Positions 8,983 through 63,698 of a DNA stretch of 64,000 nt are shown in pieces. The notes under the pieces are model-generated. The model worked only from the letters and a program-made list of their open reading frames with translations. It was not told where the DNA came from and did not search any database. The stretch lies in NCBI RefSeq assembly GCF_029167625.1, contig NZ_CP119146.1:62001-126000 (forward strand), in the 5' to 3' direction. Both the position numbers and the translations under genes were made by a program. The DNA comes from Streptomyces sp. AM 4-1-1 (GTDB taxonomy: Bacteria; Actinomycetota; Actinomycetes; Streptomycetales; Streptomycetaceae). Within the stretch, counting starts at the first letter, position 1; each line of letters starts with the position of its first letter.

Positions 8983-9020
8983 GGGGTGGCCGGTCCTTTC
9001 AGCCGGGAGGGGTCGGCGGG

Positions 9021-12110: not shown

Positions 12111-12132
12111 GTCCACCTCCTCCTTCAGATGC

Positions 12133-12154: not shown

Positions 12155-12186
12155 ACTTGTCGCAGCACGCGCAAGCGCCTTGTTGA

Positions 12187-12204
12187 TATTCCATTATGTA
12201 TTGT
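12187..12204. promoter_or_regulatory. AT-rich element shared with 17709-17726
   Basis: An 18-base AT-rich stretch (TTCCATTATGTATTGTGA) in the tap/12372 divergent gap. About 15 of 18 bases match a stretch before the gene at 17810. It is probably a promoter or operator shared by these gene groups; the function is not known. Confidence 0.3.
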
Positions 12205-44471: not shown

Positions 44472-46781
44472 TCAGCTTTCTTTTAGTGCGGGAGCGGGCG
44501 GCATCGTCACACCGGCATGGAGAAGAGCGCTAAGCCACTCCTCGGGCAGCTTTCCGGCCTGATGCATGCGCCGCTGTTCCTGCAGCCAGCCGCCAATCGT
44601 TACACTGGCCGGCGGATTTACATCCCCATGCTGTTTCTTGTACTTTAAGAGGAGTCGAAAATTGTCCTCCCATTTCCTTTCGGCCACACTCCACACGAAA
44701 CCGAGACTTTCGAGAATCTTGATCTTTTCCTCGGAAAGATTTTCCTTTTTGTGGCGGATTCGATATTTTACTACTTGTTTTCCCAGTGGGCGGGCATCGG
44801 GGCCGGGCGTCATGTAGTTGTGGGGAACCAGCAGGTCGGAGTGCCGGCTGGCGTATGTCTTGAGGTCGGCAAGGAACTGTTCCCAGACATCTTTTGTGGG
44901 ACTCCAGGAGAATCCCAAGGCGTCGAGCTCGGCAATGACCTCCGGCTCCACTTTTCCCAGCCGGTGCTTCGAGCGCAGATTATTGACTGCCGTACCCAAT
45001 GGGTAAGGCGGCTCTCCATCGGTGGTATAGCTTTGAGGGACGCGCATATGGCCATTTTGGGCATGAAATGCACGCAAGTGTTTCAGCATTTGCTGGCGAG
45101 CCGTTTCTGAATTGCTCCAGATCATATCGAGCTCGTTCAGTGCGGTGATTCGTTCCGGTGCGAGTTTCCCTTCCTTGCGCTTTTGGCGCATGCCGTTTAT
45201 CCATATTCCCAGATTGATCCCGTCAGGTGTGCGCCATGATTGGTGTACTCTCAGATCACCGTGTTTCTCGCGGTATGCCTGAGCGGCGCCGTAATAATCT
45301 TTCCAGGATAAGGGTGTGGCGCGCACCGTCTGAACGGTGATGGCGCTGGCGAAGCCGTGGGGCACAGGTGCGCCTGTGACGCGCAGCCAGTCGGGTAGGA
45401 CTCTCTCCATCTGACTGCTTGGTGCGCTTGCGGACTGCTTCTGCAGTTCGTACAAACGGAGGGCGAGGCCGTCGTCATGAGCGGACAGGGCCCGGATTAC
45501 CTGCCAGACCGGAGCATAAGCCGAAGTCTCCAGTGCGGACTCGGGATCTTCACCTGGACTGAGGAAGACAGGCACGATGATGGATGCCGTCTTGGGCCCG
45601 GCATTCCGGCCACGACGCAGTGCCCGCCCGATGGCCTGGATCGTGTCGATGGCGGAGCTGCGGGGGTCGAAGAAGGCCACTGCGTCGACCCCCGGAGCGT
45701 CGAAGCCTTCACCGATGATTTTCGCGTTGGCGATCACGACCAGCCCGTCGCCGTCACTACGCAGCCGGTCCACGGTCTTTCTGCGCTGGTCCAGTGGCTG
45801 GGTCCCGCTCACGTAGTCGGCCAGCAAGCGCACCGGGCGCTCGTGCGGCTGCAGGAGTTCGACGGCGTGTGGCAGGGTATTGGCGACCCAGCGGGCGTCG
45901 CCCACGCGGGTGTGAAAGGTGATCATCCTGCGGATGCCGTACTGGTGGGCTGCGCGCAGGACGGCTACTTGAATGGCGAGCATCCGGGACGACAGGGCAG
46001 CACGGCCGCTTTGGTAGTAGTTCTGCTGCTGGGCAGCGCTCTGGAGGTCCTTGTCGGTCAGAACGGGCACGATTACCTGGTAGTCGGCCAGCAGTCCCAG
46101 CTCGATGGCTTTCGAGAAGGGAAGCCGGTGGGCTACCGTGCCGAAGATTCTTTCATCGTCCATGCTGATGGCGGCGTCTTCAGCATTGCTACCGCTGGCG
46201 ACGATCTTCGGTGTCGCGGTCATGTACAGCCGACGGAAGGCGGGGATGCGTGTGTTGCTGTGGATGATCGCCCACGCTTTGCTGGCGCGTCCTACGCTGC
46301 GATGTGCCTCGTCGATGACGATCAGGTCCCACATCGGCAGGCGATGCTCGTCGTGGGCGGCGGCGAGCGTCGGCAGGCTCTGGTAGGTGCAGGCGACAGT
46401 GATCCGGCTCTGGTCTGCGGTCAAGGCAGCCAGCTGAGCCGGGTCGGATGTGATGAGAGCGCCGTTCCTGCGAAGGTCGGGCTCGTGCTTGCGCAGCACA
46501 TTCTGGTCGGAGCAGACTGCGACGACCCGGCCGAGCACTTCGGCGCCGAGCACGTGCCGCCATTCGCCGATCATCTGCGTGATCAGGTCCAGGAAAGGAA
46601 CGACGAGCAAGACGCGCCTGGCGCCGGCATGCTCCGCCAGGTGTCCCGCGACAGCAGCGCCGACCCGGCTCTTGCCCGTGCCGCAGGCCATGATGGTGGT
46701 GGTGCGCTCGGCATTGGCCAGCGCCGACACGGTGTCGTTTACTGCTTCGATCTGATGGGGCCACAAACCAGACGTAATCAA
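44472..46781 (-). CDS. DEAD/DEAH-box helicase with helicase-associated repeats
   Basis: A 769-residue helicase built like the one at 6577-8982. It has Walker A MACGTGKS near residue 32, VIDEAHRS, IGRALRRGR, then about four C-terminal helicase-associated units (HGDLRVHQSW, NGHMRVPQSY, HSDLLVPHNY, HGDVNPPASV). The TTG start has GAGGAA 8 bases upstream. Base composition of the C-terminal third (44640-45130) is clearly AT-richer than the rest, suggesting separate origin. It ends 8 bases from the IS. Confidence 0.85.
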   Translation of the reverse strand: MITSGLWPHQIEAVNDTVSALANAERTTTIMACGTGKSRVGAAVAGHLAEHAGARRVLLVVPFLDLITQMIGEWRHVLGAEVLGRVVAVCSDQNVLRKHEPDLRRNGALITSDPAQLAALTADQSRITVACTYQSLPTLAAAHDEHRLPMWDLIVIDEAHRSVGRASKAWAIIHSNTRIPAFRRLYMTATPKIVASGSNAEDAAISMDDERIFGTVAHRLPFSKAIELGLLADYQVIVPVLTDKDLQSAAQQQNYYQSGRAALSSRMLAIQVAVLRAAHQYGIRRMITFHTRVGDARWVANTLPHAVELLQPHERPVRLLADYVSGTQPLDQRRKTVDRLRSDGDGLVVIANAKIIGEGFDAPGVDAVAFFDPRSSAIDTIQAIGRALRRGRNAGPKTASIIVPVFLSPGEDPESALETSAYAPVWQVIRALSAHDDGLALRLYELQKQSASAPSSQMERVLPDWLRVTGAPVPHGFASAITVQTVRATPLSWKDYYGAAQAYREKHGDLRVHQSWRTPDGINLGIWINGMRQKRKEGKLAPERITALNELDMIWSNSETARQQMLKHLRAFHAQNGHMRVPQSYTTDGEPPYPLGTAVNNLRSKHRLGKVEPEVIAELDALGFSWSPTKDVWEQFLADLKTYASRHSDLLVPHNYMTPGPDARPLGKQVVKYRIRHKKENLSEEKIKILESLGFVWSVAERKWEDNFRLLLKYKKQHGDVNPPASVTIGGWLQEQRRMHQAGKLPEEWLSALLHAGVTMPPAPALKES

Positions 46782-47855: not shown

Positions 47856-49590
47856 TCACCGGGATGCTTCCAGGAGTCGGCGCACGCGCTGTTCGTCGCG
47901 GCGGCTGATAGGGGCGTAGATGTCGATGGCCCGCCGGAAGAGGGTGCGGGCCCGCTCGAGGTGGCCGCCGCTCAGAAGGGTCTGCCCCAGTAGCTCCAGG
48001 CTGTGTGCGTTCCAGCGCGGCGTGCTGATCGTGGCGAACTCGTCAACAGCTTGACGGCCCTGCGCCTCGCCTCGGGCGAGGTCGCCGTTCTCCGCGTGGG
48101 CCCGGCCGCGCCAGGCCAGCGCACGGCCGGCGTCGAAGCGGTCCTCAATCGCGAGCAGGACGTCACGGGCCGAGGTCAGTGCGCTGACGGCTTCTTCCGG
48201 CCGGCCGAGCCCGATGAGGACTTGTCCCAGACAGATGTCGGTCAGCGCGACGCCACGCCGGTAGGCGAGCTGCTCGCGTTCGTCGTGTGCCGCGGCGCCG
48301 AGTACCACCCGGCGCTCGCGTGCCCGGAGCAGGAACCCCTGTGCCTCCACCAGCCGTTCGGTGGCAAGGTAAACAGACCCGATCTCGTGCAGGGCCTGGG
48401 CCTCGCTGCGCTCGTCGTTGTCTTCTCGGGCCATCTCCAGCACCTGGGTGAAGGCCCGCTCGGCGTCGTCGTGGCGTGCGGCGCCACGTAGGCCGACCGC
48501 CCACGTTCCGAGCATCTCCCGCACAGCGGCCCGGTTGCCGCAGCGCACCGCGGCGGCGAATCCGAGCTGGTGGCTCTCGTTCCACAGCTCGTAATCGTGC
48601 GTTGAGCGCAGCAGGGGCCAGATCGCGTGGGCGAGCTGCCACACCACAGTGTCGATGCCGGCGGCGTCCGCGGTACGGATCGCGGCGAGCAGGTTGTGCC
48701 GCTGGGACTCCAGCCAGGCGAGGGCAGCCGCCTGGTCGGTGAAAGCCATCGGCACGCCGGGCGGGTAGGAGTAGTCACGTGCGAGGCGTAGGTGCGTCGG
48801 GGTGAGCAGACGCTCGGCGGCGGTGGCCGCAGCGAGGAAGAAGTCCAGCCCCCGGCGCCGGGTCTCGGTTTCCTCCCCAGCGGTCGCCTCTGCCTCGGCA
48901 CGCTGTCGGGCGTGGGCTCGGGCAGCGTCGTGATACCGGTAGACCCGTCCCCGCAGTGGGTCATCGAGGTCGCTGACGGCCTCGATGAGATGCGCGTCGT
49001 GCAGCGCGGCCAGCGCGTCGTGAGCGGCCGGCCGGGCCAGGTCGCACACCGCGGCGGTGTCGCGCCGGAGTGCCCAGTACGCGTGGTCGAGGGCGGCGGT
49101 GATGGCGGCCTCCTGGTGGATGAGCGCGGACCGTCCGGTCCGGATGGGGGCGAGGTGTGTGGAGAGCGCGGCGCTCATGTCGAGCAGTGACCGGGCGGGG
49201 TGAGCTGCGAGTTCTTGCACGGCGAGGGCCATCGCGAGCGGCATCCCTGCGGACATCTGGGCGATGTGGTCGGCGGCCTGGGGCTCGCGAGAGATCCGGT
49301 GGGCGCCGAGGCAGACGGTGAAGTACTGCCGTGCGGCGGCGGGATCGAGCGGGCCGAGACGGTGCAGCACAGCGCCGTCGCTGGCCAGATCCGCCAGCGG
49401 GTCGCGGGAGGTGACGACAACGAGGTGGCCGCCGCCGGGCAGCAGGGCGCGGACCTGCCCGGCGGTCGCTGACCGCCACCACGCACCGAGCTCCTCGGCC
49501 GAGACGGGATGAGCGCCCGGGCGTACGGCCCGCAGAAGCTGGCCGAGCACGTCACTGGTACGGGCGGGGCCGTCGGCCGAGTCACCCCGC
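47856..49590 (-). pseudogene. 5'-truncated NB-ARC/TPR regulator (AfsR-like without DNA-binding domain)
   Basis: About 578 codons remain. The text starts inside an NB-ARC domain (VVVTSRDPLADLASDGAVLH, then AGMPLAMALAVQEL) and continues through a winged-helix-like part and at least four TPR units (ERAFTQVLEMARE, EAQGFLLRARE, EAVSALTSARD, RARTLFRRAIDIY). The P-loop and the Walker B strand usually found before RALLPGG are missing, and at ~49590 the homology ends against a recombinase fragment reading the other way. The frame stays open beyond, but that part is antisense to the recombinase. Confidence 0.7.
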
Positions 49591-50405
49591 TGGATCTCTG
49601 AACACCTGATGCGGCAGATGGAGAACCCCGCCAGCCTGGCCTTGATCGCCACCGACGATCTCCGCCTCATGGTCCCGCTGCTGATCTCCTGCGGCCTGCG
49701 CATGAAGGACGCCCGGCGCCTGCGGTTCGACTGCGTCACACACGACGACACCGGCGCCCCCCCTACCTGACCTGGGTCAACCACAAGATCCACGGGCGCA
49801 TCGCGTTCTTCCCCATCAGCCAAGCCTTGGCCGACGAGATCGCCGCACAACAGAAGCGCGTCCAAGCCCGCTTCCCTGCCGGAAGCCGCTTCCTGTTCCC
49901 CGGCTGGGTGGCGAACCTCAACGACAGCAAGGCCGTCTCGGACAGCTGGTGCCGCGAACAGATGGAGACCTGGCTGGAGCGCATCCGCCTCATCGACGAG
50001 CACGGCGGCCCCGCGCGGGTGACCTTCCACCAGTTTTGCCACACGCTCGGCACCCGACTCATCAACGCCAACGTCCCGCAGCACATCGTCCAGCAACTGC
50101 TTGATCACATGTTGCCGCAGATGACGGCCATTTACGCCCGGCTGCACCAGAAGACCCTGCGCGAGCATTGGGAGAAGTCGCTCAAGGTCAACACCGAAGG
50201 CGAAGCCGTCGCGCTGGATCCGGAGACGCTGGCCCGGCGCATCGAGAGCGACACCGTCGAAACCGGCGTCCAGCAATGGCGCCTGGACCACATCCCGCGC
50301 TACCAGAGTGCACTTACCTGGATGCGACGAGAGGCCGAAGTCATCGACACCACTCATCTCTCGCCCACCCAAGTCGCGAAGACGATTACGGCCAGCATCC
50401 GCTGA
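49591..50405 (+). pseudogene. Broken tyrosine recombinase (integrase)
   Basis: The C-terminal catalytic domain only. It reads WISEHLMRQMENPASLAL, ISCGLRMKDARRLRF (first catalytic Arg), then at a C7 run near 49757 the frame shifts to YLTWVNHKIHGRIAF. TFHQFCHTLGTRLIN has Cys where the HxxR arginine belongs, and LLDHMLPQMTAIYARL holds the last His-like position and Tyr. Missing 5' end, frameshift and lost Arg make it a clear relic. Confidence 0.75.
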
Positions 50406-51236
50406 TTGGTTGGCGACGATCCCGTCGTCCGGCATAGACCTGTCCGTGTCGCAACCCAGCAGCTCAGAGACACTGCCGACCGCAGAGATCGACATAACCT
50501 CGAAGAGCAGGACACCGTTGCACAACTGCGACCATCCCTGATCCGGGTGGGCCGCGACCACGATGGCGGCCTCCCGGTCCGTGGCTTCGGCAGAGGGCAG
50601 ATGGGTTTGTGCTGACACATGACAAGGCCTCGGGAGAAACATCGCTGGGGAGGGATGGACAGAAGAGCGGTGGAGAGGGACCGGCTGCCGCAGCGACGCC
50701 CTCGCCACGGCAGCCGGGAGACAGCAGCGCTAGGGCCCTGCGTCTCGCTCCGATATTCCGGAGACAGCAGTGACGGGGGATGGCACCGCTGTCTCCGGAA
50801 CGGGACTCGGAGCCCGAGGGCGGACACCGGCGCACGGCGCTCACGGGGGTGTACTGCCGTACGGAGGCGTCCGCCCCGTTCATTGGGTGGTCGATCGTGG
50901 GCTTCACACCGGGCACCGACTGAGAGGTGGTGTGAGGTCCCAGCCAGCAGGATCAGATGCGCCCGCGAGCCCATGCAGTCGGTCGGGACGGAACTGCCGA
51001 GGACCGCAAGCCGTCGCGGCCCATCCGCCGCCCGCGGTAGAGCTGGGAGGTGCTTACGGAGTACAACCACCACCTGGTTGACCTCGTCCTGGCAGCGAAG
51101 CAGCTGAGGCACAAGCCGTCGGCCTGCCAAGCCGACTGCCCAGGCTTCGCCTCCGGACAGAGTGCCGAGAACCGACGAAACGAGAGCGATCACGACAACC
51201 CTTCCGTAGGTGACGATGCGGAAGAACTGTGAATAG
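50406..51236. other. Scrap region without a recognisable gene
   Basis: About 830 bases after the integrase relic. No ribosome-site-supported gene or motif was found; probably decayed or rearranged DNA. Confidence 0.4.
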
Positions 51237-51787: not shown

Positions 51788-52917
51788 ATGAGAGCGAGCC
51801 CCGCCGTGTCCGCTTCACGCCTGCCCCGGCGACGCCTGGTCGCCGGATGGGACGAGCACCCTCTCGGCGTCGGTTGCCGGCCCATCGGGGGACCGGCAAC
51901 CAACCTGGGCTACGCCACAGGATGGGCATCCGTGAACGACGACTGCGCGGTCGACGCCCTCCTGCGCGCCCGCGAAGAGGGAGCAACTGTCTTCGATACC
52001 GCGGACGTCTATGGTCTCGAGCACTCCCAGTGGCTGTTGGGCCGCCTGCTTGCTCAGGTGCCCCGCGAAAGCGTCAGCATCACCAGCACGGTCGGGGCCT
52101 TCAGGGGCACCAGCGTCAATGCGTACGGCTCCCTGATCCTGCACGGGCAGGCGGAGCAGAGCTTTGAGAACCTCGGCGTGGAATCGCTGGATGTCCTGAC
52201 GCTGCACCACACCGACTTCGGCCCTCGCGATCAGTACCTCCAGGAGGCGCGCGAGACGCTGGAAGCCCTGCGCCACCTCGGCAGGGTCAAGGCACTCGGG
52301 ATGAGGGCGCCGAACCGGCTGGCGGCAGGTGCAGAGACCGCAGGTGACCGCCACCAGGTAAGCGCGGCTCGGTTCGCGTTCCTCGTCCAACAGTTCGACC
52401 CCAAGGTCATCACCACCCCCTTCAATCCCCTCAGCCAGCCACCACTTGAACATAGGGCCGCCGGCAGCGAAGAGGACGAGGACATCTTCAGCTTCGCCCG
52501 TCGCCACAACGTCGTCACCATGATCACGGAACCTCTGGGCCGGGGTCTGCTCGCCGGCAAGTACCTTCCGGGCACGGCCTTCGGCCCTGGCGACGTCCGC
52601 TCCCGCATCACCGCGCCGGTCCTGGACGTCGTCGAGCGAGGCCTGCAGCCCCTGCGGGATCGGTTCGGTTCCGCCCCGGATGACCTCGCCCGGGTCGCCC
52701 TCCTGATTGCCTCCGGCGCTGCCCGGACTCGATCGTCTTTGCCGGATTCACCGGTCCACAGCAGGTGGCCGTCAACTACCAGTGCCTGAAGTCCGGGCTG
52801 AGCGAACCGAGTTGGAGGCGGCCGGCCGGCCCCGCTTCAACGAAACGGCACCCGTACGGCCATTCCCCGGCGCGAGTCGGGCCGCCCACGCAACCGAGGA
52901 GCGATGACGCCCCGTGA
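51788..52917 (+). pseudogene. Aldo/keto reductase family gene, frameshifted and lacking the catalytic Lys
   Basis: LGVGCRPIGG, VFDTADVYGLEHSQWLLGR (Asp and Tyr of the tetrad), SITSTVGAF where the family has a catalytic Lys (STKVG), and LTLHHTDFG with the His. Near 52705-52710 the frame breaks: the direct reading stops at 52789, but the next frame reads CLRRCPDSIVFAGFTGPQQV, the expected C-terminus, and ends at 52917. So it is a decaying gene, a sequencing error, or an already non-catalytic relative. It heads the biosynthetic cluster. Confidence 0.7.
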
Positions 52918-52939
52918 AGATCACCAAGGGGGAGACACC

Positions 52940-54253
52940 GTGAGGCCAGACAGCACCTCCTGGATGACCTACGCCATCAACCTCGCCGAAGCGATGCCGC
53001 AGCCAGGCAGGCGGGCCGGCGCAGCGCTCGTCTCCGGGCACAGCGGGCTGATCTGCTCTGCCTTTGAGGGCGAAGAGCCCGGCGTGTCCTGGAGTCGCAC
53101 GCTGCGGCGCAAGGCCCGAGAACTCGGAGTGTCCAGCGCACACAGCGTCTACCTGACGATCAACACCCTGTCGGAGGCCGGGTCGTTCGAGCTGGCCGAG
53201 CTCTTGGCGGACGTGCGGATCGACACGGTGTACATCGGTCTGCCGGACCCGGCGCTGACGAGCTACCGCAGTGGCGATCCCGTCACGGAGCGGGACCAGG
53301 TGCTGCGCTTCCCCGACGAACTGCAACGCCACATCCTGGACCAGAACCGAGATCTCTACGCGGCGAGCGGGCAGAGCATCGAGTGCAACCCTCACTACTC
53401 CACCCACCGCATCAGCGAGGCCGTCACCACCAAGCTGTTGTCCATGGGGTTCGCGCTGACTAAAGACGACGTCAACGCGCACCGGGGGAGGACGGCGCTC
53501 GCCACACTCATCCACCAGAGGTACGGAGCCGAGTACGAAGAAGCGGATCGCGCCGTAGCAGACGCGCTGGCCAGCGCGTTCAACACGAAGTACGGCACCT
53601 ACGACTACACGCACGACGCTCGCACCGCCAACGCGGGGTGGGCCGACGATTTCATGTCGGTGTACAGGAAGTCGTCCACAAGACCCCTGTCCGCAGTCAG
53701 CGTCCTCAACGTCGGCGTCGGCGCCGGCCACGAGGCAACAGCCTTGTTCTCAGACTGCCCGCATATCACCTTCGCCGATATCGCGGAAAGTGGCCTTGCA
53801 AACATAAGCAGGCGAATTCCTCGTTCAAGAATCGTCATCTCCAGCGCCGAGGATCTATCCGTCATACCAGACGACAATTTCGATCTGTATGTCTCCTTGA
53901 GGACGTACAATTCATCATTCTTCGACACGTCCGCAGCGGCCCGGGAAGCGCACAGAGTACTGAAATCAAGCGCGGTGATTATCGTCTCCGTGGCCAACGG
54001 GTTTCTGTATACTCAGCGGGGCTGCGTCGTGCCAGGGTTGATCATTCCCGGAACTGATTTCGTCGACCTCTACCGTGGAATGGAAACGGCGAACCTGATC
54101 GGCGCGGAGCTCGAATGCGCTGGATTCAAAGATATTCGAATTCTCCCAACAAGTACCGAGATCTACCTGTCGGCGGTCGCGACTTCCCGTCAGTTCCGGG
54201 CGAGGGGCCGTAGGAGGCCGGGGCGACCGGACGGGCCTGGAGGGGCAGCGTGA
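52940..54253 (+). CDS. RibD-like deaminase domain fused to a SAM methyltransferase
   Basis: A 437-residue fusion. Residues ~1-190 follow the outline of RibD-type pyrimidine deaminases (MTYAINLAEAMPQPGRRAGA, VYLTINTLSEAGSFELAELL, VYIGLPDPALT), but the zinc motifs HAE and PCxxC are absent, so it is probably not a working deaminase. Residues ~240-420 are a class I methyltransferase (VLNVGVGAGHEA, DLYVSLRTYNSSFF, AHRVLKSSA). GTG 52940 follows GGGGGAG at 5 bases; ATG 52904 is the alternative. The last ~400 bases are AT-richer than the surroundings. Confidence 0.6.
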   Translation: MRPDSTSWMTYAINLAEAMPQPGRRAGAALVSGHSGLICSAFEGEEPGVSWSRTLRRKARELGVSSAHSVYLTINTLSEAGSFELAELLADVRIDTVYIGLPDPALTSYRSGDPVTERDQVLRFPDELQRHILDQNRDLYAASGQSIECNPHYSTHRISEAVTTKLLSMGFALTKDDVNAHRGRTALATLIHQRYGAEYEEADRAVADALASAFNTKYGTYDYTHDARTANAGWADDFMSVYRKSSTRPLSAVSVLNVGVGAGHEATALFSDCPHITFADIAESGLANISRRIPRSRIVISSAEDLSVIPDDNFDLYVSLRTYNSSFFDTSAAAREAHRVLKSSAVIIVSVANGFLYTQRGCVVPGLIIPGTDFVDLYRGMETANLIGAELECAGFKDIRILPTSTEIYLSAVATSRQFRARGRRRPGRPDGPGGAA

Positions 54254-54269
54254 AGGAAGGGCTTCTGCA

Positions 54270-54989
54270 ATGAACGGGCAAACGATGGTTGCCGATCGCA
54301 TCCTGCAGTTCAACGAGGGACTCGCGGACACGACGCTCGAACTACCCCCCGGGTACAGGGTTGTCAACCCTTTCAGCGGCCCCCAGAAGGAGCGCGTCCG
54401 CGAGGTGACGACCGCGTTCTACCGCCGACACTACGACGATGACAGGCCCCGCCGGCTGATCCTGGGCAGCTCGCCCGCCCGGCGGGGCACGGCCGTGACC
54501 GGGGTCCCGTTCGAAGACGCCAAGCTCCTCGAAAGCGACACGGGAGTCGATGTCTCCGACGGCTACGCGGTGAGCCGGCCCTCCGCCGGGTTCCTGCACG
54601 ACGTCATCACGCGCTACGGGGGACGGCCACGGTTCTACGCCGACTTCGTCATGAGCTTCGTGTGCCCGCTCGGCCTGGTGAAGACGACCCCCCAGGGCAG
54701 AGAGGCCAACGCCAACTACTACGAGAACAATGAACTTCTGAAAGCCCTGGAAGGATTCCTCGTGGGTGCCCTGGAGCGTCAGCTGGAATTCGGCACCGAC
54801 ACTTCGGTGTGCTACAGCATCGGCAGCGGCGGAAACTTCAAATTCCTCACGAAGGTGAACGAAGGCCGGGGCTTTTTCAAGGAGATCGTTCCCTTGGAGC
54901 ACCCGCGATTCATCATGCAGTACAACGGCGATAGGAAAGAAGAGTTCGCCGAGAAATACCTCCGTGCTCTGCGCGGAGAAGGCGACTAG
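54270..54989 (+). CDS. Uracil-DNA glycosylase-like protein (SMUG2/DUF4918 type)
   Basis: A 239-residue protein. LILGSSPARRGTAVTGVPFED (64-83) matches the active-site loop of this UDG group (usually LGxNPGPFG...TGVPF), with SSPARR replacing NPGPFG; DFVMSFVCPLGLVK and a late EHPRF follow the family. The changed loop may mean altered or lost base excision. As part of a compact cluster with other base-handling folds, it may act on a free nucleotide or on DNA carrying the product's base (inference). Confidence 0.7.
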   Translation: MNGQTMVADRILQFNEGLADTTLELPPGYRVVNPFSGPQKERVREVTTAFYRRHYDDDRPRRLILGSSPARRGTAVTGVPFEDAKLLESDTGVDVSDGYAVSRPSAGFLHDVITRYGGRPRFYADFVMSFVCPLGLVKTTPQGREANANYYENNELLKALEGFLVGALERQLEFGTDTSVCYSIGSGGNFKFLTKVNEGRGFFKEIVPLEHPRFIMQYNGDRKEEFAEKYLRALRGEGD

Positions 54990-55061
54990 CAGCGGCGCCC
55001 TCGGCCTACCTCTGGCCGAGGGCACCCACCACGACGGATCGAGAAGAAGGAGAACAGCATC

Positions 55062-55841
55062 GTGGTGTCAGAAGGCAGGATCCTGGTCCACTTCGGCTCG
55101 GAACACGTCAGCGTCCACCGCCACCAGGGGGGGACGCTGGACCTGCTCACGAAGGACCCGCTCCCGTTCGCAGCCGGCCTCGACGGTGAGGCGCTGGCGG
55201 AGCGCGTCGGCGAGTTCTGCGTCGGGCTCACGCAGTACGCCGAGGCCGTCGACAACAAGACCACGCGGGTGCACGCCACCGGGGTGTTCCAGCAGCTGCC
55301 GCAGGCGGAGGCGGCCGCGCTGGTCAACAGCGTCTACGTCGACACGGGCCTGTACTTCAACATCGTGGGGCCCGATCTCGAGCGGTTCTACTGGGACACG
55401 GCCATGTCCGCCTCCGGCTCGGACGAGATGGTGGAAGGCATGGCCCGGCGGGAGTTTCGGACGGCCGTCGTCTGCGGCAGCTTCCAGCAGTCGCTGGAAC
55501 TCATCGAGGCCACCATCGCCCGACTGCGCGAGAGCGGCACCGAGGTGCTCAGCCCCCGCAGCACCAGGATCAAGCCGGAGACCGAGGGCACCGACTTCAT
55601 CCTTTTTGACTACCAGGACCAGCTGAAGAACCACCGCGACACCTGGCGGCACAAGTACGTGCACATGGACGCGTTCCGGCAGGCCGACGCTGTCGTCGTG
55701 TGCAACCCGGGCGGTCGCGTCGGAAGCGGCACCGTCTTCGAGCTCGGCTTCATGTCCGCGCTCGGCACGAGGGTCATCTTCACCGAGGAGCCCCGGGGCG
55801 TGTCCGTTTCCTTCCCCTGCGAGGTCGGCATGGGGGCCTGA
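55062..55841 (+). CDS. Nucleoside 2-deoxyribosyltransferase-like protein with an extra N-terminal domain
   Basis: A 259-residue protein. Residues ~132-255 form the NDT fold: TAVVCGSFQQ, HKYVHMDAFRQADAVVVCNP and GGRVGSGTVFELGFMSALG with probable catalytic E227. The same fold includes MilB and BlsM, which free the base from CMP in nucleoside antibiotic pathways. The first ~130 residues are not recognised. The GTG start has AAGGAG at 9 bases. Confidence 0.72.
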   Translation: MVSEGRILVHFGSEHVSVHRHQGGTLDLLTKDPLPFAAGLDGEALAERVGEFCVGLTQYAEAVDNKTTRVHATGVFQQLPQAEAAALVNSVYVDTGLYFNIVGPDLERFYWDTAMSASGSDEMVEGMARREFRTAVVCGSFQQSLELIEATIARLRESGTEVLSPRSTRIKPETEGTDFILFDYQDQLKNHRDTWRHKYVHMDAFRQADAVVVCNPGGRVGSGTVFELGFMSALGTRVIFTEEPRGVSVSFPCEVGMGA

Positions 55842-55955
55842 GAACACCCTGCCGTCCCGGTGGTCACCGCCCCGACGGCACACCTTCGGCCCGCGCTCTC
55901 CGTCCATCCCAATCCCGCTGCTCGGCTACGTAGATACGGAAAGGACCATCCGCTG

Positions 55956-57749
55956 GTGGAACCCATCGACATGATCGACACGGTGCGCGACAGGCTGCGG
56001 GGGATCGTGGCCTCGGTCCTGGAAGTTGACCAGGACGCCATCAAGCCGGGTGCCCTGTTCTACGAGGACCTCGGCATGAGCTCCCTGGAGAAGACCGAGG
56101 TCGTGGTCGCGGTCGAGCGCCAGTACGGACCTCTGTCCGCCCAGGAAGCAGCCGCCTTCACCAGCCTGGACGCCGCGGTGACTGTGCTCGCGAAGCGGGC
56201 GAGGACCCGCCAGGACGTCGACCTGATCGACCTCTTGGTGGCGGCCCGCGTCCGTGCCGGCCACGGTGACCGGACTGCCTACCTCGACCCCCAGGCCGGG
56301 GAGATCACCTACGCGGGGCTGCTGGAGGCGGCCCGCGGGTACGCGGGCGCCCTGCGAGTCGCGGGCGTGCCCGCCGGCACCCGCGGCCTGCTGGTCGCCA
56401 ACGACTCCGTGGCGACCGTGACCGCCGTGCTGGGCCTGTGGTGGCACGGCTGCGTCCCCGTGGTGATCAGCCCGATCCTGACCGACGCCGAGCTGCGCTA
56501 CATCGCGGAGGACTGCGACGCCGCGATGGTGCACCTGGACGCGACCCCCGCGCGGCAGCGCACCCTGGAGGAGCTGTTCGCCACGGCCACCCGGTTCGCC
56601 GGTGCGGACGTCCGCACCGGCCTGGCGACGGCGGAAGTCGGCCCCGCGTACCAGCCCGGACAGGCCGGACCCCCGGCCGTGTGGAGCGCGGGCGGCGAGG
56701 CGCTCGTGCAGTACACCTCCGGCAGCACCGGCATGCCCAAGGGAGTGCGGCACTCGTCGGGCGCGATCGCGGCCATGGCCCACGGCATCGGCACGGTCCT
56801 GGCGCTGACCGAGCAGGACACCGTGCTGTCCAGCGCCCGGATGAGCTTCGGCTTCGGCTTCGGCAGCTCCGTCCTATGCCCCCTTGCGGCCGGCGCCCGC
56901 GTCGCGCTCATCAGCGGCACCGTCGACGTCCACTCCCTCACTGCCGCGCTGCAGCACCACCGGCCGACCGTCCTGTTCTCCGTCCCGCGGCTGTACGCGG
57001 CCCTGCTGAACGCCTCCGGAAACGAGCTCGCCCCCGTCAGCGTCGACTCCGTGCGGCTGTGCGTGGCGGCTGGCGAGAACCTGCCCGGCCCGCTCGGTGA
57101 GCGGATCCGCACCGCCTTCGGCGCCGAGCTGCTCAACGGCCTCGGCGCAACCGAGGTCCTCTACATCGTCGTCGGCACCCCGCCAGGCGAGGACCGGCCG
57201 GGGACCTTCGGAGTGCCGGTGCCCGGGACCACCGCGACCGTCCGCGCGACGGACGGCAGGCCCGTCGCCGACGGCGAGCAGGGACGGCTGCACATCGCCG
57301 GCCCGACCGTCGCCCTGGGCTACATCGGCCGACCGGAAGCAGCGGCGGCCACCTTCGCCGACGGCGGCGCCTACACCGGCGACGTGGTGCGCCGTGCGCC
57401 GGACGGCACGTTCACCCACCTGTGCCGTTCCGATGACGTGCTCAACCTGGGCGGCCACAAGGTCGTGCCCAGCGAGATCGAGAGCGTCCTTCGCGGCGTC
57501 GACGGGGTCCAGGACTGCGTGGTGGTCGGCGGCCGCGACGCCGACGGCCTGGAGCAGGCGGTGGCGTACCTGGTGGCCGCGCCCGGATCCGAGGTGACCG
57601 CGGTGCGGCGCGCGGTGCTCGCCGCGATACGCGGAGGTCTCGCCACCTACAAGCGGCCCGGCCGCCTGGAGTTCCTCGACCAGCTCCCCACCACCTCGAC
57701 CGGCAAGGTGGCCGCCTTCGAGCTCAGGAAGGCGGCCAGCCGAGCATGA
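55956..57749 (+). CDS. ACP-acyl adenylating enzyme fusion
   Basis: A 597-residue protein. An acyl carrier domain occupies ~1-80, with attachment Ser43 in YEDLGMSSLEK. An AMP-forming ligase follows, with VQYTSGSTGMPKGV, GLGATEVLY, YTGDVVRR and the C-terminal Lys in TSTGKVAAF. It probably adenylates a carboxylic acid and loads it on its own or a partner ACP. The benzoate-CoA-ligase-like look hints at an aromatic or amino acid starter (inference). The GTG at 55956 has AAAGGA upstream. Confidence 0.85.
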   Translation: MEPIDMIDTVRDRLRGIVASVLEVDQDAIKPGALFYEDLGMSSLEKTEVVVAVERQYGPLSAQEAAAFTSLDAAVTVLAKRARTRQDVDLIDLLVAARVRAGHGDRTAYLDPQAGEITYAGLLEAARGYAGALRVAGVPAGTRGLLVANDSVATVTAVLGLWWHGCVPVVISPILTDAELRYIAEDCDAAMVHLDATPARQRTLEELFATATRFAGADVRTGLATAEVGPAYQPGQAGPPAVWSAGGEALVQYTSGSTGMPKGVRHSSGAIAAMAHGIGTVLALTEQDTVLSSARMSFGFGFGSSVLCPLAAGARVALISGTVDVHSLTAALQHHRPTVLFSVPRLYAALLNASGNELAPVSVDSVRLCVAAGENLPGPLGERIRTAFGAELLNGLGATEVLYIVVGTPPGEDRPGTFGVPVPGTTATVRATDGRPVADGEQGRLHIAGPTVALGYIGRPEAAAATFADGGAYTGDVVRRAPDGTFTHLCRSDDVLNLGGHKVVPSEIESVLRGVDGVQDCVVVGGRDADGLEQAVAYLVAAPGSEVTAVRRAVLAAIRGGLATYKRPGRLEFLDQLPTTSTGKVAAFELRKAASRA

Positions 57750-58882
57750 CGTGGGACATCACGGGCATGGCGGCCATCGCCAACATCGGCGCCACCCCGG
57801 AAGAGATCTTCGCCGCGCTCTGCGCGGGCAAGGAGAGCCGCGCGCCGTTGAAGGCGTTCGACCCGGCCAAGTACCGGGCGGCCTACGCCTACGAGATCGA
57901 CGACCGGCCCGAGGCCGGCGTCGACCTGCCGGGGCGTGCCACCCGCTGGTTGACCACCGTCGTCCGCCAGGCGGCCGCCGACGCGGGCCTGGGCAAGGAC
58001 CTGGCCCAGGTGCCCGTGCTGGTCGGCACGACCATGCGCGAGCAGCGAAGCCTCGAACTGTGGTGGCGCGACGGCGCGCAAGTCGCTGTCGACGACCTGC
58101 ACTTCGGTACCGCGCTGAAGGCAGAGTTCGGGGCGTGCACCACGTACACCTTCGCCAACGCCTGCTCCGCCTCGCTGTACGCGCTCGGCATGGCCACGGA
58201 CATGATCGACCTCGGTCTGGCCGACACCGTCATCGTCGCCGGCACCGATGCCGCCACCGAGAGCGGCTTCGGCACCCTCGACCGGGTGCAGAACGATCTC
58301 CCCGACGCGCTGCGCCCCTTCGACGCCACCCACAAGGGCATGCTGATGGGGGAGGGCGCGGCGGCTGTCGTCGTCCAGCGCACCGGCACCGGCACCGGGC
58401 CCGTGCACGCCCGGGTGCGCGGCGTGTCCATGAACTGCGACGGCCACCACGCCACCGCGCCCGACCCCGACGGCATCACCCGCGCAGTACGGGACGCCTA
58501 CGCCAGAGCGGGGGTGCGGGCGGGCGACATCGACCTGGTGATGCTGCACGGCAGCGGCACCCCCCTCAACGACAAGACGGAGTCGAGCGTCCTGCGCCAC
58601 GTCTTCCAGGGCGCGGGCGCCGGTCTGCGGATGACGGCGATCAAGGCGATGACCGGCCACACCATGGGCGGCTCGGGATTGCTCAGCCTCGTGATGGCGG
58701 TGCTCGCCATGAAGAGCGGGACGGTCCCCCCGGTCCTGGGCCTGGCCGCCCCGATCCCCGAGGCCGCCGGACTGGGCCTGGTGCAGGGCCGCCCCACCAC
58801 CGCCGACCTGCGCCTCGCCCAGGTCGACGCGTTCGGCTTCGGAGGGATCAACGCCGTCGCGATCGTGGAGGCCATCCGATGA
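57746..58882 (+). CDS. Beta-ketoacyl synthase, catalytically complete
   Basis: A 378-residue thiolase-fold ketosynthase with the C-H-H triad: C140 (FANACSASL), H268 (LHGSGTPLND) and H305 (TGHTMGGSG). It is shorter than FabF (~410) because of a short N-terminus. It overlaps the preceding gene and the following ketosynthase-like gene by four bases, suggesting a paired enzyme. Confidence 0.9.
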   Translation: MTWDITGMAAIANIGATPEEIFAALCAGKESRAPLKAFDPAKYRAAYAYEIDDRPEAGVDLPGRATRWLTTVVRQAAADAGLGKDLAQVPVLVGTTMREQRSLELWWRDGAQVAVDDLHFGTALKAEFGACTTYTFANACSASLYALGMATDMIDLGLADTVIVAGTDAATESGFGTLDRVQNDLPDALRPFDATHKGMLMGEGAAAVVVQRTGTGTGPVHARVRGVSMNCDGHHATAPDPDGITRAVRDAYARAGVRAGDIDLVMLHGSGTPLNDKTESSVLRHVFQGAGAGLRMTAIKAMTGHTMGGSGLLSLVMAVLAMKSGTVPPVLGLAAPIPEAAGLGLVQGRPTTADLRLAQVDAFGFGGINAVAIVEAIR

Positions 58883-59895
58883 CCGCGACGAGCACGCGGA
58901 GAAGGGCGGATGTCCGGGAGGTCGTCGTTACGGGCGTCGGGCTGGCGCTTCCCGGCGTCGCAACGCCCGGCGACCTCCTCGGACTACTGCCGGGGGAGGG
59001 CGGCTTCGACCCGGTCACCGGACTGGTCGGACGGGAGCTGCGCCACAAGGACCGGGCGTCCCGGCTCGCCCTTCGCGCCGCCGAGTTCGCCCTCCACGAC
59101 GCTGCTCTGGCCGACGCCGACGGCCTGTTCACGGGCGCGGCCGGCGGGACCGCCGTCGTGGTCAGCACCAACTTCGGCAATGCGGACAGTGTCTGCGGGG
59201 CCGTCGACACCATCGCCGCTGAGGGTGTCACGGGCCTCAGCCCCCTGGGGCTGCCGCAGACGTCCAGCAACGTCATCGCCGGTTGGGTGGCCATCCGTTA
59301 CCGGCTGGGCGGCCCCAACCTGACGGTCAGCAACGGCGCAACGAGCGGTCTGGACGCCGTGGCCTGGGCCCGGAACCTCATCGTCGCCGGCCGCGCCGAG
59401 GCCGCCATCGTCGTCGGCGTCGAGCCAGGCAACCACGTGGTGACGAAGATCCTCGGCGAGCAGTCCACCGACGCGGCGGTCGCCGTCGTCCTGGAGCCTG
59501 CGGACGCAGCCGCTTCCCGGGGCGCACGGCCCCGCGCCACGATCACCGGCTACGCACGGACCCGGAACCTCACCGAGGCGCTGGTCTCCACCGGCGAGCC
59601 CGCGGAAGGCCCCGTCGGACTGTGGCTCACGGACGGGGCGGAACCCGCCGGCACCACGGCGGGCCGCCTGCTCGCAGCCGCGCGCCGGATCGACCTGGAA
59701 TCCCAGCTGGGTCCGCTGTCCGGGGCGCTCGGCGTCCTGCAATGCGCCGCCGCGGCCGCCCACCTGGCCAGCGGCGCCTCCGGCAACGCCCTGGCCACCG
59801 CCGGAGGCCCCCGCCACGACGCGACTGCCGCCCTGCTGCTGGCCCCGCCGCGAGCCCTTCGCCCGTCCACGCAGGAACGAGGACAACACCCATGA
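58879..59895 (+). CDS. Ketosynthase-like partner without active-site residues
   Basis: A 338-residue ketosynthase homologue. In SNGATSGLDA the catalytic Cys is Ala154, and both His motifs are gone (AEPAGTTAG and LGPLSGALG). This pattern recalls chain-length factors, which pair with an active ketosynthase. ATG lies in the ATGA overlap with the active ketosynthase gene. Confidence 0.8.
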   Translation: MTATSTRRRADVREVVVTGVGLALPGVATPGDLLGLLPGEGGFDPVTGLVGRELRHKDRASRLALRAAEFALHDAALADADGLFTGAAGGTAVVVSTNFGNADSVCGAVDTIAAEGVTGLSPLGLPQTSSNVIAGWVAIRYRLGGPNLTVSNGATSGLDAVAWARNLIVAGRAEAAIVVGVEPGNHVVTKILGEQSTDAAVAVVLEPADAAASRGARPRATITGYARTRNLTEALVSTGEPAEGPVGLWLTDGAEPAGTTAGRLLAAARRIDLESQLGPLSGALGVLQCAAAAAHLASGASGNALATAGGPRHDATAALLLAPPRALRPSTQERGQHP

Positions 59896-60887
59896 CCACC
59901 ACGAGCGTGACCATCGAGGAGCTCCGCGCCCTGATAGCCGACGTGCTGGAGACCGAGCCCGAAGAGGTCACCGACGATGCGCACTTCGCCCACGAGCTCG
60001 ACATCGACTCGCTGATGATGCTGGAGATCTTCACCCGCGTGGAGGGCGCGTTCGGCGTCCTGGACAACGCCGTGGTGGCCAGCGGCGTCACCACCCTCGC
60101 CGAGCTGCACGCCTTCCTCACCTCGAAGCTCAACCGCGCGACCTTGCCCTCCCCGCTCATCCGACCCAGGCCGGTGAGCGACCCAGCGGCGCGCCTGTTC
60201 CTGCTCCACCACGCCGGCGGGTCACACCTGCTCTACCGGGGCTGGGCGGAGCTTTTCCCCGAGGACTGGGAACTGTGCCTGCTGGAGGCGCCCGGCCGCG
60301 GCAGCCTCCAGGGCCTTCCGCTGATCGACGACTGCGAGCAGCTGGTCGACTACTTCCACGTCGCCATCGCGCCCCTGCTCGACCGGCCCTTCGGGTTCTT
60401 CGGCCACAGCATGGGCGCCCTGATCGGCTACCAGCTCACCCACCGGCTCCTCCGAGAGCGCGGCGCGCTCCCCACCTGGCTGGGGGTCTCCGCCTACGGT
60501 GCTCCGGGAGGCGACGCCAGCGGCTGCGGCCCTCACCTGATGGCCGACGACGAACTGCGCGCCTGGCTGCGCAGCGGCGGCGGCAGCCCACCGCAGCTCC
60601 TCGACAACGACGTCTGGCGCAAGTTCGCCCCGGTGTTCCGCGCCGACTTCAAGCTTGTGAACACCTGGGCCGCACCCCGCAGCCCCGAGCCGCTGCCCGT
60701 CCCGCTCACGGCATTCGCCGGCAGGGGCGACGCGCTGATCGGCGAGGACCGACTCCTCGCCTGGCAGGCGCTCACGACCGACTTCCGCGGACTCGCGAGG
60801 TACGACGGTGGCCACTTCTACCTGCTGGACCACCCGCAGCAGCTCGCCGCCGCCATCACGGCCGCGATGCGACCCGCAGCACCTTGA
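59892..60887 (+). CDS. ACP-type II thioesterase fusion
   Basis: A 331-residue protein. An ACP sits at ~1-80 with attachment Ser40 in HELDIDSLMML. A RifR-like alpha/beta-hydrolase follows: FLLHHAGGS, catalytic S173 in FFGHSMGAL, Asp in GRGDALIG and His in DGGHFYLL. It probably carries and then releases or edits the acyl chain. ATGA overlap with the ketosynthase-like gene; last gene of the cluster. Confidence 0.88.
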   Translation: MTTTSVTIEELRALIADVLETEPEEVTDDAHFAHELDIDSLMMLEIFTRVEGAFGVLDNAVVASGVTTLAELHAFLTSKLNRATLPSPLIRPRPVSDPAARLFLLHHAGGSHLLYRGWAELFPEDWELCLLEAPGRGSLQGLPLIDDCEQLVDYFHVAIAPLLDRPFGFFGHSMGALIGYQLTHRLLRERGALPTWLGVSAYGAPGGDASGCGPHLMADDELRAWLRSGGGSPPQLLDNDVWRKFAPVFRADFKLVNTWAAPRSPEPLPVPLTAFAGRGDALIGEDRLLAWQALTTDFRGLARYDGGHFYLLDHPQQLAAAITAAMRPAAP

Positions 60888-60967: not shown

Positions 60968-61357
60968 TCAGGCGTCGGGGTCGACTTCGGGGTGCGTGAA
61001 CCGCACGGGCCGGCCCAGCGACCGGGCGTAGGCGATCTCGGACCGGGTGCTGTCACCGATGTAGTCGCCGACCACGAGCACCTCATCAGCCAGAAGGATC
61101 TTCGATCGGTGCAGTGCGTCCAGCCGAACCTTCAGCGCTTCGGCCTCGACCGGGTCGGACCAGAGCGGCTGCGGAGACTTCAGGTCGCAGCCCGGCTTGA
61201 CGACGATCCGCCCGGCCTCGGTCTCCCGTACCTCTGCCTCGGCCATCTCGGCCATGAAGCGGGTGGAACCGCAGATCGCGACGATCTGCGGGAAGTTCAG
61301 CTGCGCCTTCGCCTCGGCGAGCTTCTCCTCGGGGGTGATCACTTGCGGGGACGACAC
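60968..61357 (-). CDS. Small nucleoside 2-deoxyribosyltransferase-like protein
   Basis: A 129-residue protein with IVAICGSTRFMAEMAEAE, then LHRSKILLADEVLVVGDYIG and DSTRSEIAYARSLGRPVRF, the outline of NDT-like/DUF4406 proteins, with a Glu in SEIAYA at the catalytic position. AGGAGGAACA just before GTG 61357 decides the start. It converges on the cluster and may be unrelated to it. Confidence 0.7.
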   Translation of the reverse strand: MSSPQVITPEEKLAEAKAQLNFPQIVAICGSTRFMAEMAEAEVRETEAGRIVVKPGCDLKSPQPLWSDPVEAEALKVRLDALHRSKILLADEVLVVGDYIGDSTRSEIAYARSLGRPVRFTHPEVDPDA

Positions 61358-61952
61358 TGTTCCTCCTGGTGGTGCTGCCCGAGGGATGCCTGCGGCGACA
61401 AGTACGAGGGCGTCCAAGGTCGCCTTACGGCGAACCGTGAACACACCCGCGCCCGCACTCTATGCGACGGAGATCCCTGCCCGGTGGCGCTTCGCCAGTC
61501 AGCCACCTGGCCGCAATTTCGGCCGACCCAAGGCCGCCCTGGCTGCCAGCGCCACGAAGAGCCGCCACGGCCTGCCCGGCTGCCGCCCCGAGCAGCCGCT
61601 GTCCGCGGCGTCGGGCCCCAGTGTCGGCCTCGTCAGCCGATCCCCTGTCGGCGGCCGGTGGCGGTGCCGGGACGAGCACGGGAGACTTCCGCCACCCGAA
61701 CGAGCGAAGAACGACCAGTCGACCGCGTTGACGAAGGCTGCCCGGCGGGGAGGACCTCGGTGGTATGCCAGCCCCGGCTCACCGAACGGCCAGGCCGCCT
61801 GCCAGCCGTTGCGGATGCGGCTGGAACCGAGGTTGAGGCGGTCACCTCACCGGCGCCCCGGCCCTGCGCTGCGCCTGCGCCCGCCCTGATCGCTACAGCT
61901 GCCCGCTACCCCATTCCTGACCACGCCCGCTGTGCATGTCAACGAGGAGATC
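61358..61952. other. Non-coding gap
   Basis: 595 bases between divergent genes. Long open frames exist only as an effect of high GC; I see no motif or ribosome site. Confidence 0.4.
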
Positions 61953-63005
61953 ATGTCCATCGCATCCCACGGCACGCCGGAGCAGATCGCGGCGATCGCC
62001 GAGACGCTGGTGCTCGCGTACGGACTGCGCCCGGCGGAGATCACGCGCATCCCGGAAGGCACCGCGACGGACAACTACGCCATCGTGGACCAGGCGGGCC
62101 GTCAGCACTTCGGCAAGGTCTACCGCACGGGCAGCAACTTGGATCTGGAGCTGGCGTCGGTCGAGCTGTCCGAGTACGCCGCCGACGGGGGCGTCGCCAC
62201 CGCGCGGGCGACCCGCACGCGCGGCCACGAACTCATCGCGACCCATGGGAGGCTTCCGATGTCTCTGTGGTCGTACGTGCCGCACACCGAGACCGCCGAG
62301 GGCACCCTGACCGGTGCACGCTGGCCCGCGGTCGGCGAAGCGATGGGCCGTCTTCACCGCCGGCTCGCCACCCACCCCGCCGCCGCACCCGCGCTGGAAC
62401 CCGGTGCCGCGATCTGCGACGTCGCCACTGCCCGAGACCGCTTCGCCAGGCTGATTTTCGCCTTCCAGCGCAAACCCTGGCTGGGGGAGTTCGAGGCATG
62501 GGCTCTGCAAGCGGCGCGGGAGCGGCACGCCGTCCTGGGGGACGTCGAGAACGTCCTCGTCGGGCTTCCACCGCTGACCGTCCAAGTCATGCACGGCGAT
62601 CTGGCCGGCCCGAACGTCCTGTTGCGGAACGACGCCGTTGCCGCGCTCGTGGACTTCGGCCCCCCCGCACCCGGCTACCTCGCCTGGGAACTCATGCGCC
62701 TGGGCTGCGACCCCAAGAGCTTCCAGTCCCACGGCGTCGAGAAGTGGCTCACGAGCTACACCGACCTCGCCCTCGCCTACCGAGACGCCAACCCCTCGGC
62801 ACCCACGGCCGACCTCCTGTCCTCGGTTCGCGTCGGCTGCGCCGCCATGCTCTGCTCGGCTTTCCCCCTGTCGGCCCCCGTAGACCGACCCCACCTCGTC
62901 GACGCTGCGCTTGAGTCCTACGCACGGGCACGGCACGCGGCCGCGCTGACGATTCTGGAGCAACTGCCCGCCTTGGAGCAGGTCCTGCGCGACGCTCTTC
63001 GCTGA
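61953..63005 (+). CDS. APH/homoserine-kinase-like phosphotransferase
   Basis: A 350-residue kinase of the aminoglycoside phosphotransferase fold. It has the catalytic motif MHGDLAGPNVLL and the metal-binding ALVDFGPP. N-terminal EGTATDNYAIVD and FGKVYR supply the nucleotide-binding part. Substrates in the family range from antibiotics to small metabolites. GAGGAG immediately before ATG 61953 sets the start; a GTG at 61932 is the alternative. It could give self-protection against the cluster's product (inference). Confidence 0.82.
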   Translation: MSIASHGTPEQIAAIAETLVLAYGLRPAEITRIPEGTATDNYAIVDQAGRQHFGKVYRTGSNLDLELASVELSEYAADGGVATARATRTRGHELIATHGRLPMSLWSYVPHTETAEGTLTGARWPAVGEAMGRLHRRLATHPAAAPALEPGAAICDVATARDRFARLIFAFQRKPWLGEFEAWALQAARERHAVLGDVENVLVGLPPLTVQVMHGDLAGPNVLLRNDAVAALVDFGPPAPGYLAWELMRLGCDPKSFQSHGVEKWLTSYTDLALAYRDANPSAPTADLLSSVRVGCAAMLCSAFPLSAPVDRPHLVDAALESYARARHAAALTILEQLPALEQVLRDALR

Positions 63006-63176: not shown

Positions 63177-63698
63177 TCATCGGGTGAGCAGCTCCACTTG
63201 GAGCAGATCGTCGGGGCTGACCTTGATCGCGGCGATGTCGGCGAGCCACTCCATCCACACCGGTTCGACGCCGGGCGCGGCCTCGAACTCGGCGTCCGTC
63301 ACGCGTCCCTGCGCGTAAGCGACCGTGCGGTCTGCCAGCTCCTGCAGGGCGTCGGGGGCGATCCAGCGGACATTCTTGGTCTCGCGGGCGCTCGGAGTGA
63401 GGTCGCCGGTGACGGTGGCCTGGTAGACGGTCCAGTCATGGCCGGTGCCGCGGGCGTCGGGACGTCGGCGGCATCGGTTGTCCCGCCAGCCGCCGGTGAC
63501 GCGGGTGAGGCTGGTGACGGTGAGGCCGAGTTCCTCCTCGACCTCGGCGCGGCCGGCGTCCTCGGCGCTGCCGTGGTCGTCAATGTGGCCGGCGGCCGGT
63601 GACGCGCCGACGGGGAAGGTGGCGCGATCGAAGATGAGGTAGCGGCCGTGGCGGTCGGTGATGACGATGCCAACGGAGGCGTTGTCGCAGGTCTTCAA
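63177..63698 (-). CDS. NUDIX family hydrolase with a degenerate box
   Basis: A 173-residue NUDIX-fold protein. The box runs from GHIDDHGSAEDAGRA into EVEEELGL: the catalytic EE pair is kept, but the first Glu and the Arg of Gx5Ex7REUxEExGU are replaced. IDDHGSAED and KNVRWIAPDAL fit IDI-like members. TTG 63698 has AGGAG at 7 bases. The substrate is unknown. Confidence 0.8.
   Translation of the reverse strand: MKTCDNASVGIVITDRHGRYLIFDRATFPVGASPAAGHIDDHGSAEDAGRAEVEEELGLTVTSLTRVTGGWRDNRCRRRPDARGTGHDWTVYQATVTGDLTPSARETKNVRWIAPDALQELADRTVAYAQGRVTDAEFEAAPGVEPVWMEWLADIAAIKVSPDDLLQVELLTR

Follow-up and report, generated by a model that had tools for sequence, protein, structure and literature searches.

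A stretch of 64,000 nucleotides from Streptomyces sp. AM 4-1-1 (contig NZ_CP119146.1, positions 62,001 to 126,000; here called the window, in which all positions below are counted), whose genome comprises 7.47 Mb in two contigs, carries a conserved cluster of seven genes. Three of them encode relatives of enzymes that process nucleobases and nucleotides, and four encode a minimal acyl assembly line. We found that the cluster consists of two joined modules. The reading that we favour, tentatively, is an aryl-primed ketide pathway that comes with its own base-clearing genes for self-protection. The original prediction, made from the sequence alone, had proposed a nucleobase or nucleoside joined to a short acyl unit; it was right about the genes and their grouping, and its proposed product was not supported.

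All seven genes lie on the + strand. The first (52904..54253) encodes a putative RibD-like deaminase-fold domain lacking zinc ligands, fused to a class I S-adenosylmethionine-dependent methyltransferase (Methyltransf_11, 9.6e-10). It is followed by a gene for a SMUG2-like homologue of uracil-DNA glycosylase (UDG; 54270..54989; UDG domain, 3.3e-8) and a gene (55062..55841) for a protein with an N-terminal single lobe of the PPX/GppA fold and a C-terminal N-glycosidase domain of the DNPH1/nucleoside 2-deoxyribosyltransferase (NDT) type (Nuc_deoxyrib_tr, 3.1e-8). These are the base genes. The acyl genes encode an acid ligase of the benzoate/anthranilate type fused to an acyl carrier protein (ACP; 55860..57749; PP-binding and AMP-binding domains), a ketosynthase (KS; 57746..58882; ketosynthase N and C domains), a shortened KS-like partner resembling a chain length factor (CLF; 58879..59895; PF00109 at 2e-16, no Ketoacyl-synt_C) and an ACP-thioesterase fusion (ACP-TE; 59892..60887; PF00550 (PP-binding) at 6.7e-10, PF00975 (Thioesterase) at 3e-39).

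The original prediction had listed eight genes on one strand with several 4-bp overlaps, and an open reading frame (ORF) check of the window recovered all eight on the + strand with unchanged coordinates. The domain matches agreed with its gene list, including the minimal ligase/KS/CLF/TE module and an aldo/keto reductase relic, and, as it had noted, the domain calls of the operon genes included no acyltransferase or ketoreductase. The 4-bp overlaps number three and lie among the acyl genes, at the ligase/KS, KS/CLF and CLF/ACP-TE junctions; gaps of 16 and 72 bp separate the base genes. A ligase start at 55971 is likelier than 55860, as counted on the translation from shorter homologue ORFs (in an ORF list filtered by G+C), and would leave ~129 bp after the NDT gene. 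In the window, the G+C contents were 62.5-67.9% for the three base genes and 70.8-74.6% for the four acyl genes.

Of 295 genomes sampled from the genus, 8 carried the UDG gene, the window's genome being one of them. Among 394 genomes drawn from the class it was found in the window's own genome only, so its spread beyond the genus is thin in that sample. The seven other genus genomes with the UDG gene all had the identical order methyltransferase fusion-UDG-NDT-ligase-KS-CLF-ACP-TE, with protein identities of 70-87% for the seven genes. For a wider locus comparison, the best 80 of 166 relatives were kept, and within these the seven genes occurred in 12/12 named Streptomyces/Kitasatospora loci. 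A set of 20 Streptomyces/Kitasatospora loci, entered via the UDG gene and taking in two annotated plasmid copies, held the seven genes together in every case (L057 and L060, whose contigs match those of L017 and L023 in length, were left out as duplicates of these). The grouping thus exceeds chance, and the prediction of one conserved cluster with a recurring gene order was borne out. Additional sequence lay between genes of the acyl half in L047 and L053. Four plasmid records of Streptomyces carried the base module, and a fifth had a partial UDG (72% of the query); two annotated linear-plasmid copies of the cluster exist. Of the plasmid matches carrying the UDG, H2 and H3 were left out of the locus comparison.

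The extent of the unit differed from the predicted list in part. The seven genes stood, the reductase did not (7/20 loci, upstream), and two downstream genes were missing from the list: a short NDT-like gene convergent with the operon (60968..61444, - strand; NDT-like by eye, with no Pfam family above its cut-off) in 20/20 loci, and a gene for an APH-family phosphotransferase (61932..63005, + strand; PF01636, 1.6e-15) in 18/20. The two exceptions for the latter were L046, which had only a 40% copy elsewhere, and L047, whose stretch ended before the APH position. The conserved unit is therefore the seven genes plus the short NDT-like gene, usually plus the APH gene, and the reductase is accessory.

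The UDG homologue could be aligned over its whole length with 5h0j (E 4.6e-75 over profile positions 5-235), a structure listed as 'Uncharacterized protein' that we take to be SMUG2 of Pedobacter heparinus; relatives of the cluster protein are named SMUG2 by NCBI, and actinobacterial UDG proteins are named also from genera such as Amycolatopsis, Actinomadura and Arthrobacter. Motif 2 (HP) is retained. Motif 1 reads GSSPARRG rather than GINPGR in 8/8 cluster proteins and in all 28 loci with the trio of base genes, and the orthodox relatives had GINPGR(L/F)G in 14 of 16 and AINPGRFG in the other two. The genome carries three more UDG-superfamily genes, and the cluster UDG is thus not the housekeeping copy.

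The NDT half of the third base protein (residues 133-259; PF05014 above its cut-off) folds as DNPH1 and the MilB CMP N-glycosidase, with no significant sequence match in PDB. Its Asp209 and Glu227 were invariant in 33 alignment rows and, matched by motif and by eye, take the positions of D80 and E104 of DNPH1, which together with Y24 form the catalytic triad of that enzyme (PMC10603095). By eye, none of 10 rows had a Tyr at the place of Tyr24, and the fusion to a PPX/GppA lobe is a further difference from DNPH1 and MilB. Since the lobe is single, a normal PPX active site would not be expected. The deaminase signal of the first base protein was weak: dCMP_cyt_deam_1 matched 10 of 13 members, at best with 8.7e-4 and for the window protein with 0.062. 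PDB profile matches up to E 10 were all deaminases (8/8), the best being RibD 3zpc at a weak 0.46, and the zinc ligands HAE and PC..C were absent in 20/20 rows (by eye) and in the alignment with RibD. A fold search with the 449-aa model returned methyltransferases from the methyltransferase half, and the N-terminal pseudo-deaminase domain was therefore judged by sequence only.

For the acyl half, the closest solved relatives of the ligase were benzoate-CoA ligase 2v7b (9.6e-76) and anthranilate-CoA ligase 4wv3 (4.6e-61). Cys140, His268, Lys300 and His305 of the KS, presumably its catalytic residues, were invariant in 8 loci, and by eye the place of the active Cys in the CLF-like partner was taken by Ala, Thr or Val. 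The two best solved relatives of the KS were 6kxd (6.3e-48), which we take to be the KS-CLF for ishigamide, and 9s5h, named 3-oxoacyl-ACP synthase, of which 9s5h_C was also the second-best solved relative of the partner. A KS with Cys-His-His and a partner lacking Cys (by eye) are shared with the highly reducing type II polyketide synthases (PKS) Iga/APE. Unlike these, the operon genes together with three downstream genes include no ketoreductase (KR) or dehydratase (DH), and so no polyene is expected. Most likely, an aromatic acid is loaded, extended once or a few times and released as a short ketide.

The cispentacin enzymes AmcB/F/G/H likewise combine a KS, a KS-like partner, an ACP and a ligase, and for AmcF-AmcG a single C2 elongation was reported (PMC10698177). 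A single round is suggested for the present cluster only because of these two distantly similar proteins. NCBIfam suggested that the cluster belongs to the cispentacin family, which was rejected on the score cut-offs: the cluster KS scored 175.5 bits on the AmcF model NF058662 (cut-off 325) and its partner 20.3 bits on the AmcG model NF058659 (cut-off 80). The ligase resembles benzoate ligases, and the base genes lie outside the published Amc core.

Both halves, the acyl half in a looser form, also occur apart. CLF relatives at E <= 1e-20 were found in 60/295 genus genomes, with a score gap between nine genomes at E <= 4e-173 and the next at 1e-108. These nine were the eight UDG genomes and G149, which holds a decayed copy (L124) retaining the CLF, the ACP-TE, 26 KS residues and the downstream genes; its stretch had no base gene or ligase, and its genome no UDG. 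By eye, transposase-like ORFs lie near this decayed copy. Among the 295 genus genomes, none showed an intact close form of the acyl half without base genes. Looser acyl sets without a base gene were compared in 7 loci (protein identities of 49-59% for the ligase, 61-70% for the KS and 52-59% for the CLF), and no base gene was found in any of the 13 looser-set loci fetched, in an ORF search filtered by G+C that missed some real genes. The looser clusters carry other genes, for example for ketoreductase, asparagine synthase, DAHP synthase or class II aldolase.

Conversely, among the best 80 of 166 relatives, the methyltransferase fusion/UDG pair occurred in 17 loci outside Streptomyces/Kitasatospora, namely in Saccharothrix luteola, one alphaproteobacterial bin and 15 Firmicutes-type records, mostly from gut samples by title. 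The NDT gene was next in 16/17; in the remaining locus (L041) the contig ends just past the UDG gene. Relatives of the ligase, KS, CLF and ACP-TE were found in none of the 17 within the fetched stretch (some only ~5 kb), and a CLF profile run on 13 of these outside genomes, several of them incomplete bins, gave no more than partial matches (7e-15 and 4e-14 for the best two), compared to 4e-173 or better for true clusters. Since base genes occur without acyl relatives and looser acyl sets without base genes, the cluster reads as two older modules joined.

A gene for an AlkA/3-methyladenine-type HhH-GPD glycosylase (Pfam HhH-GPD 5.7e-16; 2h56 at 2.8e-37) lay directly upstream of the base genes in 12 of the 16 non-actinobacterial loci. 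The four loci without it include L080, which starts near the contig end, and L052 and L063, with a shortened fusion gene. The 12 loci form a free-standing operon, AlkA-type glycosylase-pseudo-deaminase/methyltransferase-GSSPA-type UDG-PPX-lobe/DNPH1, seen in L026 (7930-11571), L028, L031, L032, L034, L037, L038, L050, L051, L061, L069 and L071. Its hosts are mostly gut-derived Firmicutes records plus the alphaproteobacterial bin, and no further constant neighbour was seen in the loci inspected. RNA elements at gathering score were absent from nine loci with free-standing base genes, and the window itself yielded tRNA only.

SMUG2-like genes also stand alone in Firmicutes (L024, L027, L029 and L083 (Listeria), L072 and L075 (lactobacilli), and others; 34 in the tree). 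Most of these solo genes have a GSSPA-type motif 1 in place of GINPG, the exceptions being L035, L043, L076, L079, L082 and L095; the change of motif may mean a different substrate. Profile searches for the partner genes (methyltransferase fusion and NDT) were negative in all 16 solo-UDG genomes searched of the 34, and found the partners in 6/6 control genomes.

In a tree of 80 UDG proteins (L030, with a broken frame, was left out), the UDGs sitting with acyl genes formed one clade (13/13, support 0.70), whose sister was the Saccharothrix copy without acyl genes, which fits one joining event in actinobacteria. The base-operon and solo copies of Firmicutes were intermixed. The divergence of the two halves was correlated (Mantel r 0.71, reached by 0/9999 permutations), as shared species history alone could give. 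The trees of the two halves shared 4 of 17 splits, with 35 conflicts between supported splits, indicating recombination between clusters.

For the base half, the AlkA link in other bacteria and the solo UDGs without partners favour excision of bases or clearance of nucleotides over nucleobase assembly. DNPH1 is a nucleotide-pool sanitiser tied to SMUG1, the two acting on the same modified base at the nucleotide and DNA levels (PMC10603095), and glycosylases serve as self-resistance proteins in producers, as with AlkZ and YtkR2 (PMC9040887, PMC8626424) and TxnU/LldU (PMC8934636). With these precedents, a DNPH1/SMUG1-type pairing beside a biosynthetic module reads as self-protection. The present cluster resembles them in having a glycosylase-family gene within a producer-type cluster (a UDG homologue, of predicted activity, in 20/20 clusters), and differs in the UDG fold and in the pairing with a nucleotide glycosidase and a methyltransferase. 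The lower G+C of the base genes, the non-housekeeping character of the UDG and the single clade of acyl-linked UDGs are counted for this reading as well.

The reactions, product and protective role that we infer are as follows. The ligase would load an aromatic-type acid onto its own carrier domain, the KS-CLF would add probably one malonyl unit, with the acyltransferase and other steps coming from primary metabolism, and the ACP-TE would release a short aryl-ketide. Either as released or in a form that arises elsewhere in the cell, this product would damage or mimic nucleobases, and the base module would protect the maker at two levels, DNA and nucleotide. The SMUG2-like protein would remove the abnormal base from DNA; its removal from nucleotides would fall to the DNPH1-like protein, perhaps together with the short NDT-like one; and the pseudo-deaminase/methyltransferase would bind and methylate the freed base, thereby blocking its salvage.

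In a variant that we think improbable, the acyl module itself would make a polyketide nucleobase, and the base half would be both its handling enzyme and its antidote. Anthranilate extended by one malonyl unit and ring-closed would give 2,4-dihydroxyquinoline, a benzo-fused uracil analogue. The ligase would accordingly load anthranilate, the DNPH1-like enzyme could move 2,4-dihydroxyquinoline on or off deoxyribose phosphate, recognition of this base in DNA would be the task of the remodelled SMUG2 pocket, and the AlkA-linked copies of gut bacteria would be a general clearing operon for such bases.

Several points weigh against self-protection. At E 1e-15, neither the 20 Streptomyces/Kitasatospora loci nor Saccharothrix yielded an AlkA-type match. 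Control windows of the same loci mostly held LexA-type boxes as good as the best ones in front of the genes: for the two-mismatch sites of the Streptomyces-type loci L046, L048 and L064, 68, 36 and 39 of 200 controls did as well. The exceptions were two-mismatch sites before the solo UDGs of L044, L076 and L077, which 12, 3 and 9 of 200 controls equalled. To our knowledge, self-resistance sets built on glycosylases do not typically include a methyltransferase. The activity of the cluster UDG is uncertain because its motif 1 lacks the Asn proposed to position the water, a residue missing from families 4-6 too (PMC5387724). Base genes accompanying acyl genes in 20/20 loci are as expected of pathway enzymes too, and the product is putative.

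That constant company is also what one would predict for a biosynthetic hybrid, in which a nucleobase or nucleotide fragment, provided and methylated by way of the base genes, becomes attached to the aryl-ketide. We consider such a hybrid, which the original prediction had suggested, rather doubtful. In all 17 outside loci the base genes stand without acyl relatives, in 12 of 16 with the AlkA-type gene; the UDG also exists alone; the halves recombine between clusters; and the domain calls of the operon revealed no glycosyl- or amide-joining enzyme.

It is unlikely that the base module serves against stress or parasites, for example against foreign DNA carrying modified bases, and has no more than the operon in common with a small-molecule pathway. 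The plasmid-borne copies and the scatter of base genes over Firmicutes-type bacteria, an alphaproteobacterial bin and actinobacteria would suit it; an invariant partnership with PKS genes would not be expected. Three viral-contig scans, and one query of phages, returned no relative of the base genes, and a phage or viral origin was rejected. Defence models matched weakly, with mad2 at 1e-6 (methyltransferase part) and PD-T4-6 at 0.0085 (APH), too weakly for a known defence system. Least probable of all, and very unlikely, is that the cluster's product is a nucleotide-linked signal or regulator, with the PPX/GppA lobe perhaps binding a guanosine nucleotide; the single lobe argues against it, and no regulator is conserved, an XRE-peptide deformylase fusion being present in 6/20 loci.

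No matching pathway was found in the open-licence literature searched, in agreement with the original prediction, which knew of none described with this gene set; the halves were not always apart in other genomes, and this literature yielded no known cluster matching the whole set. This literature held no joint mention of uracil-DNA glycosylase, nucleoside 2-deoxyribosyltransferase and biosynthetic gene cluster, or of nucleoside 2-deoxyribosyltransferase and ketosynthase, and did not name DUF4918. A co-mention of uracil-DNA glycosylase, ketosynthase and acyl carrier protein appears to concern base editing of a polyene-producing strain. SMUG2 was mentioned with DNA glycosylase in two papers.

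Should the protective reading hold, the cluster represents a new self-resistance design that acts at the levels of DNA and nucleotide pool with UDG and DNPH1 folds beside a minimal polyketide line, and offers a marker gene set for base-attacking natural products. Should the biosynthetic reading hold instead, it represents a new route to nucleobase-polyketide hybrids. The substrate of the free-standing four-gene AlkA operon of mostly gut-derived bacteria could be found by assay.

Around the conserved unit, the aldo/keto reductase gene (51788..52789, + strand; Aldo_ket_red PF00248, 7.3e-22) is a relic: comparison with relatives showed that homology stops at 52702 and resumes in another frame from 52708, placing the frameshift between these positions. 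A NUDIX hydrolase gene (63177..63698, - strand; PF00293, 9.8e-14) is loosely linked, being present in 10/20 loci. The regulator upstream of the cluster in 6/20 loci is of the XRE type and fused to a peptide deformylase domain (L022:5172-6638, - strand; also L018, L019, L053, L062 and L137).

Elsewhere in the window, gene names were read by eye. Tap-like and ParA/ParB-like genes (9618-12194 and 23249-25551) suggest a linear plasmid. A pair resembling the Tn7-type transposition genes TniB/TniA lies at 34428-37507, and two large helicase-family ORFs (6577-9024 and 44472-46781) look like diverged copies of each other. Adjoining the cluster, a 950-aa ORF (47856-50708) is probably a decayed regulator; its C-terminal part resembles NB-ARC/TPR regulators, and its N-terminal part is different, perhaps a wrong-strand reading.

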